Of a DNA stretch of 61,643 nt, positions 5,187 to 7,218 are shown piece after piece. This stretch comes from an uncultured Oscillospiraceae bacterium (GTDB lineage: Bacteria > Bacillota > Clostridia > Oscillospirales > Oscillospiraceae), in contig CANQNS010000011.1 of assembly GCA_947625285.1 (NCBI GenBank), positions 1 to 61,643 on the forward strand, written 5' to 3'. The notes under the pieces were generated by a model. The model saw nothing but the letters and a program-made list of their open reading frames with translations. It searched no databases and had not been told where the DNA came from. The translations under genes and the position numbers were made by a program. How positions within the stretch are numbered: the stretch's first letter is position 1; each line of letters begins with the position of its first letter.

Positions 5187-5606
5187 GTGAACATCCATGA
5201 ATCCGCGGAGGATTACCTGGAATCCATCTATATGCTGACCTTGGAAAAGGGCTATGCCCGCTCCATCGACGTGGCGAACGCCCTGGGCTATTCCAAGCCG
5301 TCGGTGAGCGTTGCCATGAAGCAGCTGGAGGAAAACGGCTACATACGCCGGGACGCGGAGCGGCTGCTGTACTTGGAGGACAAGGGCCTTGCCATCGCCA
5401 AACGCATCTATGAGCGGCATGAGACCCTGGCGGCGGTGCTGATGAGCCTGGGGGTGGAGCGGGCGACCGCCTACAAGGACGCCTGCAAGATCGAGCACGA
5501 TCTGTCCGACGAGACCTTTGCCGCCATCCAGGCCCACATGGCCGCCCACGGCCAGACCCTCCCGGACATCGCCGCCCATCGTCAGGCCCACCAGGGACAG
5601 GACTAA
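5187..5606 (+). CDS. DtxR/MntR-family metal-dependent transcriptional repressor
   Basis: 139 residues: an N-terminal winged helix-turn-helix (5-65) and a metal-binding/dimerisation domain (66-139), without the SH3-like third domain of DtxR itself. By alignment from memory the likely metal ligands are D9, E12, H78, C100, E103 and H104. C100-x-x-E-H matches the iron regulators DtxR/IdeR, whereas D9 and E12 match the manganese regulator MntR. GTG start at 5187 with GGGAGG seven bases upstream. No metal transporter is adjacent, so its targets lie elsewhere. Confidence 0.88.
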   Translation: MNIHESAEDYLESIYMLTLEKGYARSIDVANALGYSKPSVSVAMKQLEENGYIRRDAERLLYLEDKGLAIAKRIYERHETLAAVLMSLGVERATAYKDACKIEHDLSDETFAAIQAHMAAHGQTLPDIAAHRQAHQGQD

Positions 5607-5635
5607 GTATACCGCGTTTTCCAAAAAATGCAACC

Positions 5636-5665
5636 AGGCCGTCGGCCCGTCGGGGCCGGCGGCCT
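5636..5665. other. Strong GC hairpin after the DtxR-family gene
   Basis: A 13-bp stem (5636-5648 with 5653-5665, one G-U) and a 4-base loop, 30 bases past the regulator stop. No U-tract follows, so it is not a canonical terminator; it may stabilise the 3' end. Confidence 0.45.
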
Positions 5666-5714
5666 GAGCGGCTTTCGCTCCCATTCCTTCGTTCTTTCCG
5701 CGCTTTTGCCCGGC

Positions 5715-5743
5715 TTGTACCGGGACCCAAAGCGTGGTAGAAT
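5715..5743 (+). promoter_or_regulatory. Promoter of the leader peptide/MFS attenuator transcript
   Basis: TTGTAC (5715-5720), exactly 17 bases, TAGAAT (5738-5743). Initiation near 5750 would leave about 24 bases before the leader-peptide ATG, with AGGAGG centred in them. Confidence 0.7.
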
Positions 5744-5773
5744 AAAGACATTCTTATAAAAGGAGGCCCTGAT

Positions 5774-5821
5774 ATGCCTGTTTTGCCCCTTGCGATCGTC
5801 TCCGCTCCATGCAAGGTTTGA
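5774..5821 (+). CDS. 15-residue regulatory leader peptide of the MFS gene
   Basis: ATG at 5774 preceded by AGGAGG (5761-5766) with 7-base spacing, then 15 codons to TGA at 5819: MPVLPLAIVSAPCKV. The first ten residues have the hydrophobic pattern and register of the ErmC leader MGIFSIFVIS, whose ribosome stalls with codon 9 in the P site; codon 9 here is Val in LAIV. The last five codons form one arm of the alternative stems described for 5804-5926. Position, RBS strength, size and overlap with the stems support a translated attenuator peptide. The stalling drug is unknown. Confidence 0.75.
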   Translation: MPVLPLAIVSAPCKV

Positions 5822-5926
5822 GGATGAGCTGACGGGAGGCAAACACACGTCAGCTATTGCATGGAGCCATAAACGGATATCCTCAGGCCTTGCAGATTTG
5901 ATATCCAAAAGATCAAAGGAGCAAGG
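5804..5926 (+). promoter_or_regulatory. Alternative stem-loops sequestering the MFS ribosome-binding site (translational attenuator)
   Basis: Four mutually exclusive segments are visible. Stem 1:2 is a perfect 11 bp (5804-5814 with 5857-5867) enclosing an 8-bp stem (5827-5834 with 5848-5855). Stem 3:4 hides the MFS RBS: 5888-5893 with 5921-5926 and 5897-5902 with 5912-5917, masking AAAGGAG. Alternative stem 1b:3 joins 5810-5825 with 5879-5894 (16 pairs including two G-U) and would free the RBS. A 7-bp stem 5875-5881/5900-5906 is a further option. A ribosome stalled near codon 9 would cover 5804-5814 and favour 1b:3. The model is inference from base pairing. Confidence 0.7.
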
Positions 5927-5931
5927 TCGAA

Positions 5932-7218
5932 ATGAAAAAAGCATATCGTGAACTGAAAACATTTCTGGTTTTATGGTCCACGCAGAGCCTGTCGCAGCTG
6001 GGCAGCGAGATGACATACTTTGCGTTGACGCTGTGGCTGTACGAAAAGACAGGTTCCGCGCTGCGGACGGCGCTGCTGTCCATCTGCTCCTGCGGGCCAT
6101 ACGTGCTCATGAGCGTTTTCGCCGGGGCGTTGAGCGACCGGTGGGACAAAAAGCGGACCATGCTGGGCTGCGACGCCTTCGCGGCCTGCTGTTCGGCGGC
6201 GGTGCTGGTCCTGCTGCGGCTGGACGCCCTGCGGCCGGCGCACCTGTACGTTCTCAACGCCGTGAGCGGCCTTATGAACACGGTCCAGCAGCCCGCCGGC
6301 GATGTAGCCATGACCCTCATCACGCCAAAGGCGCAGTATCAGCGGACCAGCGCGCTTCGGTCCCTGTCCGGTTCCCTTGTCACGATCCTGCATCCGCCGC
6401 TTGCCACGGCGCTGTTCGCCCTGGCGGGGATGGAGTGCGTGATCGTTGTGGACCTGGCCACCTTTGCCGCGGCGTTCCTGGCCCTGGCGCTTTTCGTGCG
6501 CATACCGGCGGCGGCCCCGGAGAGGACGGACGCGCCGGAGAGCTCTCTCTGGACCAGCGCGAAAGAGGGGCTGTCCTATCTGCGGGAAAACGGTCTCATC
6601 CTGACGCTGATCCTGTTTCTGGCGGGCGTGAACTTTGTGGCGTCGGCCTTTGACGCGGCGCTGCCAGCCTATGTGCTGCCCCGGGAAAACGGCGGCGAGG
6701 CGGTTTTGGGGATCGTGACCTCCTGCGCGGGGCTCGCCACGCTGGCGGGCAGCCTTCTTGTGACAGTGATGCCGCCGCCCCGGGACCGGGTCCGGGTGAT
6801 CTGCCGGACCATGCTGCTGTCATTGGGGACAGAGAATTTCATCCTGGCGTTTGCCAGGACTCCCGGCTGGTGGTGTCTGGCCCAGCTCGCCGGGTGGATC
6901 GTGGTGCCGGTGATGAACGCCAACCTGGACGTGATACTGCGCAGCGCCATCCCGCCGCAGATGCAGGGCCGGGTCTATTCCTGCCGGAATACGCTGCAGT
7001 TTTTCACCATTCCCCTGGGGCTGTTCTCGGGCGGTTTTTTGGTGGACCGGGTCTGCGAGCCGCTGATGGCGGCGGATCCCAGGGGCGTTCTGGCCCGGCT
7101 GTTCGGCCAGGGTCCCGGTTCCGGCGCGGCTCTCATGATGTTCCTGCTCGGCGCGGCCGGGGTCGCTGTCTGCGTCGGTTTTGGCCGGGTCCTCCGAAAA
7201 TATGAATATAAGGAATAG
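5932..7218 (+). CDS. MFS drug efflux transporter (macrolide-efflux/Mef-like)
   Basis: 428 residues with about 12 hydrophobic helices. The SDRWDKKRTMLGCD motif between helices 2 and 3 is the MFS signature loop, and the N-terminal FLVLWSTQSLSQLGSEMTYF resembles Mef/TetV-type exporters. Members use the proton gradient to export antibiotics. RBS AAAGGAG (5915-5921) precedes ATG 5932 and can be masked by upstream pairing. The leader peptide resembling ErmC leader suggests induction by a ribosome-targeting drug. Substrate is not predictable, and other small hydrophobic compounds are possible. Confidence 0.85.
   Translation: MKKAYRELKTFLVLWSTQSLSQLGSEMTYFALTLWLYEKTGSALRTALLSICSCGPYVLMSVFAGALSDRWDKKRTMLGCDAFAACCSAAVLVLLRLDALRPAHLYVLNAVSGLMNTVQQPAGDVAMTLITPKAQYQRTSALRSLSGSLVTILHPPLATALFALAGMECVIVVDLATFAAAFLALALFVRIPAAAPERTDAPESSLWTSAKEGLSYLRENGLILTLILFLAGVNFVASAFDAALPAYVLPRENGGEAVLGIVTSCAGLATLAGSLLVTVMPPPRDRVRVICRTMLLSLGTENFILAFARTPGWWCLAQLAGWIVVPVMNANLDVILRSAIPPQMQGRVYSCRNTLQFFTIPLGLFSGGFLVDRVCEPLMAADPRGVLARLFGQGPGSGAALMMFLLGAAGVAVCVGFGRVLRKYEYKE

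Follow-up and report, generated by a model that had tools for sequence, protein, structure and literature searches.

A probable ribosome-sensing leader-peptide attenuator before an efflux gene of an Oscillospiraceae bacterium, and related elements before other resistance genes

The window analysed in this study is a stretch of 61,643 nucleotides from an uncultured Oscillospiraceae bacterium (contig CANQNS010000011.1). We confirmed that positions 5761-5934 of this window hold a leader open reading frame (ORF) and competing helices ahead of a DHA3/Mef-like efflux gene of the major facilitator superfamily (MFS). Very probably, this element attenuates translation of the MFS gene by sensing ribosomes on the leader, and a drug-stalled ribosome there would open it. 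It has the tested features of leader-peptide translational attenuators, namely a translated leader with its own Shine-Dalgarno sequence (SD), mutually exclusive helices, of which one masks the SD of the gene, and, judged by folding, an SD that opens upon a stall. Conservation, covariation, coding selection in the leader, the gate with its register and the other downstream genes were all computed. Furthermore, the phenomenon is larger than the original prediction for this DNA had stated, and the same type of switch lies before several types of resistance genes.

The leader evolves as a protein. In the locus set, 142 candidate leaders were found by pattern (some of them antisense or with poor starts), and the GCT-CCA-TGC frame was present in 124 of them. 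After filtering and removal of identical 18-mers, 109 leaders were left, mostly from MFS loci, with leaders of chloramphenicol acetyltransferase (CAT) genes included. Single-base codon differences were synonymous in 54% of cases in frame vs 23% and 21% in the other frames, which bears out the claim of a translational attenuator with a translated leader. Counted from the GCT codon, position -5 is Leu in 86 of the 109 leaders, with all six Leu codons in use, position -4 is Cys (65) or Ala (22), position -3 is Ile in 77, position -2 is Ala (54) or Val (34), and position -1 is free. The motif L-[C/A]-I-[A/V] stops one codon ahead of segment 1, the first of the pairing segments (Table 1).

There is no single-amino-acid run in the leader, and an amino-acid attenuator was dropped as a candidate because of the missing codon run. 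A broader alternative is a general translation-stress attenuator, in which any slowed or starved ribosome (by several drug classes or a scarce amino acid of the leader) would open the gate. We regard this alternative as unlikely, although its probability overlaps with that of a drug-stalled attenuator. A multi-class sensor based on an upstream ORF (uORF) has been published, according to the available part of PMC12121999, and the leaders before CD3324-family genes described below carry yet other peptides. However, the leader lacks a run of one amino acid, and the conservation of positions -5 to -2 as protein, with position -1 free, points to a specific arrest peptide. The original prediction had also called the leader peptide new. 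Six leader-peptide strings were not found in print, by an insensitive search that also missed MVKTD, a published peptide.

MFS relatives are encoded in 26 of 400 genomes of the family (the window's own counted) and at 79 loci of named contigs, which are mostly from Lachnospiraceae, Oscillospiraceae, and other Clostridia. By pattern search, 87 of 103 MFS loci have a similar upstream element (L071, among the 87, is a false start). MFS elements up to 170 nt were aligned in 68 rows, and 10 longer elements were set aside. From these rows, 20 with a divergent B:3 register or longer spacing were left out, and the remaining 48 rows formed the alignment A2, on which the covariance model R1 was built. 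An R1 match was counted if it was on the strand of the gene and either overlapped the called MFS start or lay no more than about 200 nt away from it. Such a match was present in 90 of 99 homologous MFS loci, that is, 105 loci minus three copies (L002, L003, L096) and three truncated ones (L026, L038, L046). The 48 training rows are among the 90, and outside training 42 of 51 loci match; one of the 42 (L032) has an element identical to a training row. A cultured carrier of the element is Claveliimonas bilis (locus L062). Thus, by covariation, R1 matches and the leader motif, both the peptide and the pairing segments are kept in homologues; a lack of such conservation had been named in the original prediction as grounds for refutation. 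At one further locus (L139), a 484-aa frame behind the element matches the MFS protein over residues 1-349 only and then continues with another sequence, possibly through a fusion or an assembly error.

The AGGAGG, the 15-codon ORF and the four pairing segments that had been read from the sequence are all in place. They form three competing helices, 1:2, B:3, and 3:4, the last of which masks the MFS SD. In the window, stem 1:2 is 11 nt long and 100% complementary, stem B:3 is 88% Watson-Crick with the remaining 2 of 16 positions G-U, and stem 3:4 (5888-5902/5912-5926) is 80% complementary. The folding z of the element is -2.54, with 4 of 200 shuffles as stable or more. On A2, B:3 has 97.6% of its cells paired vs at most 50.7% when slid, and 38 cells are changed on both sides, a number reached by 0 of 500 shuffles. 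Helix 3:4 has 95.8% of cells paired and 9 cells in which both sides have changed (0 of 500 shuffles), and helix 1:2 has 92.5% paired and 2 cells changed on both sides (3 of 500 shuffles). In addition, we compared B:3 duplexes in 13 divergent leaders (12 of the 20 rows dropped from A2, plus L004 from A2). The cognate duplexes have a mean of -26.4 kcal/mol vs -17.9 for swapped partners, and the cognate partner ranks first in 10 of the 13 (L018 and L021 are identical there).

The sequence of segment 1 is almost invariant, and we attribute this to its pairing with both segment 2 and the SD (GCUCC with GGAGC). The first G of GCUCC is kept in 48 of 48 rows, although it is opposite a C of segment 2 in only 19 of them. 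This gives a second route of masking the ribosome-binding site (RBS), by GCUCC 5804-5808 with GGAGC 5918-5922, and it is the dominant one in the window copy at equilibrium: segment 1 on the SD has a mean pair probability of 0.84, B:3 of 0.99, and the core of stem 3:4 of 0.01. With no ribosome, 36 of 68 leaders prefer 1:2 with 3:4 as the OFF state, and 19 leaders, including that of the window, prefer segment 1 on the SD with B:3. Thus, the proposal that the RBS is masked by 3:4 holds for the dominant OFF state of these 36 leaders, but not for the window copy at equilibrium. The window copy also has an extra hairpin between segments B and 2, AGCTGACG/CGTCAGCT, which was not seen in the other 67 rows of the 68-row alignment. 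This hairpin may be the reason why the window copy prefers the state with segment 1 on the SD.

The near-invariance of segment 1 could also be read as the mark of a ligand-binding riboswitch or a protein-binding site with an incidental short ORF, and segment 1 does lie in another reading frame in the CD3324 and Cfr elements described below. However, the in-frame synonymous excess and the fixed spacing between the motif and segment 1 speak against this, the invariance is explained by the double pairing, and Rfam gave no covariance-model match for the element on 5700-5960 at E up to 5. Such an explanation is therefore very improbable, and a riboswitch without leader translation was dropped on the in-frame synonymous excess.

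To describe the gate, we computed the cost of opening the MFS SD as a function of the position of the ribosome front edge. With the edge before segment 1, the 68 MFS leaders have a mean cost of 6.6-6.95 kcal/mol; the mean falls to 2.25 at +6 and amounts to about 8.1 or more at +14 and beyond. The minimum is at +6 in 46 leaders and at +4 in 11. The cost both drops and rises again by 3 kcal/mol or more in 50 of 68 MFS leaders vs 0 of 136 dinucleotide shuffles. In the window, a ribosome edge that lies upstream of segment 1 gives an opening cost of 6.2-8.4 kcal/mol, and the cost is 1.0-1.9 kcal/mol when the first free base is at +8 to +14, counted from the start of codon 9, with 1.0 at +13; the flanks are 3.4 at +7, 3.8 at +15, 5.2 at +16, and 8.1 kcal/mol at +18. 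In this model, the register of the gate fits a stall at codon 8 or 9, and at codon 7 too if the footprint reaches +16. The calculation agrees with the earlier proposal that a stall near codon 9 opens the MFS RBS, and +13 is also the offset at which ermC opens.

The ermC gene of pE194, with its leader ErmCL, was used as a control in the same calculation, with codon 9 as the stall codon as given in the original prediction. It opens from +13 of codon 9 and is still open at +37, the last point tested. Both systems have a leader ORF and, in this calculation, SD masking that is undone by a ribosome at codon 9, with the same opening register. In both, hydrophobic residues precede the stall site, which is a predicted one in the window, and the codon after it is for Ser. 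The LAIV of the window at codons 6-9 is similar, not identical, to the IFVI of ErmC (MGIFSIFVIS); beside this IFVI class there is an IAVV class of arrest leaders. However, the modelled shape of the gate is different: ermC stays open over the tested range, whereas the window and the mean of the 68 homologues reclose as the ribosome moves on. Furthermore, segment 1 of the window can itself mask the SD, the peptide is another one, and the downstream gene encodes an efflux pump instead of an erm methyltransferase. Thus, the description of the element as Erm-style stands for the opening register, but not for the shape of the gate. The element is Erm-type in its working and lies outside the Erm family proper, since the downstream gene is another one and the gate recloses.

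We propose the following mechanism. Without a stall, segment 1 would be left free, and the MFS SD would be masked either by segment 1 (with B:3) or by 3:4 (with 1:2). A drug-bound ribosome stalled with codon 8 or 9 in its P site would cover segment 1 only. B:3 would then form or persist, segment 4 would be freed, and the pump would be translated. A ribosome moving on would cover B too, 3:4 would form and the SD would close; therefore only a stall within about three codons would switch the gene on. Related elements elsewhere come with other leader peptides and precede other ribosome-drug resistance genes. For the LAIV/LCIA peptides, the inducer would presumably be a macrolide or another drug of the exit tunnel or the peptidyl transferase centre (PTC).

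Some results weigh against this attenuator. R1 found no element at 9 of the 99 loci (L024, L028, L031, L053, L056, L083, L094, L103, L104). Helix 1:2 shows little double change, and L001, which is misaligned in segment 2 of A2, counts against it as well. The gate test of a drop and rise failed in 18 of the 68 leaders. With a strict +16 footprint, codon 9 is on the closing flank (5.2 kcal/mol), and codon 7 or codon 8 would be the better match. In addition, the folding is an equilibrium one that leaves co-transcriptional kinetics aside. Drug-dependent stalling, the inducing drug, and the pump substrate are inferences.

Leader peptides before Mef-type efflux genes are already known from mef(E)/mel. 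According to the available part of PMC4335068, streptococcal mef genes are under transcriptional attenuation, with the Mef(E)L leader MTASMRLR, and this precedent would favour the same control in the window. However, the mef(E)/mel attenuator described there works with a terminator and an RLR-type peptide, whereas the window has a LAIV-type peptide, a scan found no terminator-like site on the + strand of 5607-5960, and the structures of the element mask the SD. We consider transcriptional attenuation of the MFS gene highly unlikely.

Other genes are preceded by the same switch as well. We applied R1 to 394 genomes from the order at E up to 0.01, and to 391 genomes from the class and 299 from the phylum at E up to 0.001. 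Matches were found in 52, 25, and 4 genomes, respectively, with the window's own in each, and the element-bearing genomes mostly have Clostridia as their named relatives. We examined 70 elements. The order contributed 45 of its 54 rows, including the window, with E up to 6e-4 (the other nine have E between 0.004 and 0.0092); the class added 22 new elements out of 26 rows, and the phylum 3 new ones out of 4; some may come from the same genomes as the named MFS loci. The downstream gene is MFS in 49, a CD3324-family helix-turn-helix (HTH) gene in 10, CAT in 5, Cfr in 2, ABC-F in 1, and a ceramidase-like hydrolase in 1, and 2 have no clear ORF. The family scans covered all five CATs. One of these (L147) is an 80-aa ORF, and the other four, which are longer, reach 202-214 bits, under the NCBIfam CatA cut-off of 270. 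Both Cfr proteins are above the family cut-off, and the ABC-F protein, which is cut off by the edge of the fetched stretch, reaches 325 of 380 bits. The CD3324 assignment is above the family cut-off in 9 of 10 proteins and by eye in one (L146).

The CD3324-family loci (L138, L141, L143, L145, L146, L172-L174, L176, L177) encode small HTH proteins, and the leader is mostly in another frame. The two elements with no clear ORF behind them (L148, L149) are possibly decayed copies. The hydrolase (L134:235-1506, - strand, 424 aa) matches PF04734 (neutral ceramidases) at E 3.7e-5, below cut-off, and has a LAIV leader upstream. A PDB sequence search with it gave nothing at E up to 0.001. It is possibly a drug-modifying hydrolase.

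On an Enterococcus faecium plasmid, R1 matches directly before optrA (E 8e-6, 27.9 bits, filters off). This element (L180:3720-3854) has the leader MKSTTKVTFKELHV followed by a stop, and three related, competing helices can be read by eye. The optrA stretch occurs at an identity of at least 95% in 148 plasmid records, and optrA is the annotated gene in at least 15 of them. Meanwhile, two control sets were scanned with R1 at E up to 0.1. Among 30 CAT loci, drawn from 36 matches in 197 genomes, one matched (L184, the same place as L140), so R1 is linked to one CAT clade and not to CAT genes generally. Among 20 of 21 fetched CD3324 loci from 148 genomes, five matched (L214, L215, L220, L232, L233). 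No convincing R1 match was found before the gene at known cfr(C), cfr(B), and cfr loci (L178, L183, L179, L180:1483) or at one Pusillibacter CAT locus (L181); the upstream stretches of L178, L179, and L181 were also read by eye.

The peptide at the gate was then compared among gene types, placing the first free base at +13 to +15. Four CAT leaders are MKRGLDAAPCKA, MKQGLDAPPCKA, MKRGLDNAPCEA, and MKRGLDAAPCEA, with the motif RGLD three times and QGLD once, and the fifth (L144) is MKLCIAASPCKA. The Cfr leaders begin with MNNCKIAVTHDKLHAKP and MFNRNIKVTHNRLHAKP, and both have VTH. The VT motif is shared by the optrA leader and both Cfr leaders, at an equal distance from segment 1 by eye. The lowest opening cost is at L/D in the CATs L140 and L170, at T/H in both Cfr leaders, at A/I/V in the hydrolase leader, at N/E in three CD3324 leaders with NEV, and at T/G/D in the ABC-F leader (L151). 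In known chloramphenicol arrest peptides, too, the final residue is Asp, and for chloramphenicol and linezolid the residue beside the last one is preferably Ala, Ser, or Thr. This would fit RGLD and VTH, as a lead and not as a test.

These results suggest a modular family, as yet undescribed, in which one narrow RNA gate may have been recombined in evolution with different arrest peptides, each reporting the drug that the downstream gene counters. The pairings would be LAIV/LCIA with MFS and one hydrolase, RGLD/QGLD with four of the five CATs, VTH with both Cfr genes, VTF with optrA, and NEV with 3 of 10 CD3324 genes. In the folding model, the peptide often differs with the gene and its motif lies at the gate, and this appears clean in some cases only. 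Several leaders fit the proposal less cleanly. For instance, L144 combines a CAT gene with an MFS-type LCIA peptide, L151 is also low at codons 2-3, and the CAT leaders L168 and L170 reopen at later codons. The gates are shallow in the CD3324 leaders L141, L143, L145, and L174 and absent in L177, and the optrA opening cost shifts only from 2.6 to 1.5 kcal/mol. Because of these mixed gates among the other gene types, we put the probability of a modular family at slightly short of even.

The other downstream genes also bear on the inducer of the MFS element. It is possible, though on balance improbable, that the same attenuator is induced by a phenicol, an oxazolidinone, or another PTC drug that the MFS protein exports; this overlaps in probability with the attenuator proposed above, since only the inducer differs. 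The R1 elements before CAT, Cfr, and ABC-F genes, the relative before optrA, and the MFS-type peptide of the CAT locus L144 are consistent with such an inducer. On the other side, the gate peptide is a different one in four of the five CAT leaders and in both Cfr leaders, and the MFS LAIV/LCIA is near the IFVI of ErmC. In addition, the closest named relatives of the MFS protein are the Mef macrolide pumps, although all Mef models of NCBIfam score below cut-off and Mef(A) far below (104.5 bits, cut-off 675).

Chloramphenicol attenuators of the cat-86 type can be compared with a CAT locus outside the family, L188. Its leader MKRGLDEAF shares MKRGLD with three CAT elements of the family, and it opens at the same residues. 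However, it lies before one simple hairpin with a one-sided opening and stays open, whereas the window family has three competing helices. Another CAT (L189) has the leader MKRTHETSSK from a TTG start and a simple SD-masking hairpin, and L188 and L189 are apparently ordinary cat-type attenuators.

Among ABC-F genes, cplR and vmlR resemble the family in uORF-controlled resistance with SD masking and an anti-SD, and cplR also occurs in Clostridia; their uORFs, however, have three or four codons (MR[I/M], MIN, MK[L/Q], MAGN), and cplR joins termination with SD masking (available part of PMC10201436). In a man-made sensor, MGIFSIFVIS of ErmCL was replaced by MAAAPQKC to give a TcmX sensor, according to the available part of PMC13410324. 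This is like the family in that one RNA switch works with different arrest peptides, but here the exchange is apparently evolutionary. We found no description of the present element among the matches listed for leader-peptide attenuators, CD3324, optrA, ErmC-type, and term-seq attenuators, in a literature search whose coverage excludes most subscription journals.

The leader families known to confer drug-inducible resistance through ribosome stalling are limited in number. In this study, a single type of RNA switch lies before genes for pumps, acetyltransferases, and a 23S rRNA methyltransferase and before an ABC-F gene, with a relative before optrA. If the folding holds, particular drugs alone would switch on silent resistance genes of gut commensals, and the peptides of the leaders would hint at which. 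If the family is indeed modular, it could predict inducers as well as functions of the CD3324 proteins and the ceramidase-like hydrolase. It would also be natural material for asking which nascent peptides arrest drug-bound ribosomes.

Table 1. Features of the element and its downstream gene in the window
Feature	Position	Strand	Basis
Weak promoter-like site TTGTAC-17-TAGAAT	5715..5743	+	8/12 consensus positions by eye
Leader Shine-Dalgarno AGGAGG	5761..5766	+	read from sequence
Leader peptide ORF MPVLPLAIVSAPCKV, 15 codons and stop	5774..5821	+	sequence; protein-level conservation among homologues
L-A-I-V at codons 6-9, predicted stall motif, its end one codon ahead of segment 1	5789..5800	+	motif conservation and folding; stalling predicted
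Segment 1, partner of segment 2; GCUCC (5804-5808) also able to pair with the MFS SD	5804..5814	+	complementarity, folding, covariation
Segment B, partner of segment 3, overlapping segment 1	5810..5825	+	complementarity, covariation, folding
Extra hairpin between B and segment 2, arms 5827-5834/5848-5855	5827..5855	+	inverted-repeat search
Segment 2, partner of segment 1	5857..5867	+	complementarity, covariation
Segment 3, partner of B; its CCUUGC doubles as partner of segment 4	5879..5894	+	complementarity, covariation
Segment 4 around the MFS Shine-Dalgarno (GGAG 5918-5921)	5912..5926	+	complementarity, covariation, folding
MFS efflux gene, DHA3/Mef-like, 428 aa	5932..7218	+	ORF; Pfam MFS_1 and MFS_3 above cut-offs

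The promoter is a weak point of the observation. A site with the 17-nt spacing proposed earlier is present, but it falls short of the threshold of the promoter scan (9/12 consensus positions), which did not list it. At the gathering threshold, Rfam found one tRNA and nothing else in the whole window.

The MFS protein matches TIGR00900 (H+ antiporter) of NCBIfam with 164.5 bits, under the cut-off of 319.6. A PDB sequence search with this protein gave nothing at E up to 0.001, and a phage search gave no match. In its own genome, there is a single match to the MFS gene, and R1 gives one strong match and, at that location, a weak antisense match too. A plasmid DNA search with 5700-5960 of the window found no match. 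Meanwhile, the MFS protein was found in 7 plasmid records, of which a Monoglobus record carries the element (L182, E 3e-15). The upstream neighbour of the element is a DtxR/MntR-like regulator gene (5187-5606), and BlaR1/BlaI-like genes lie downstream of the MFS gene on the opposite strand.

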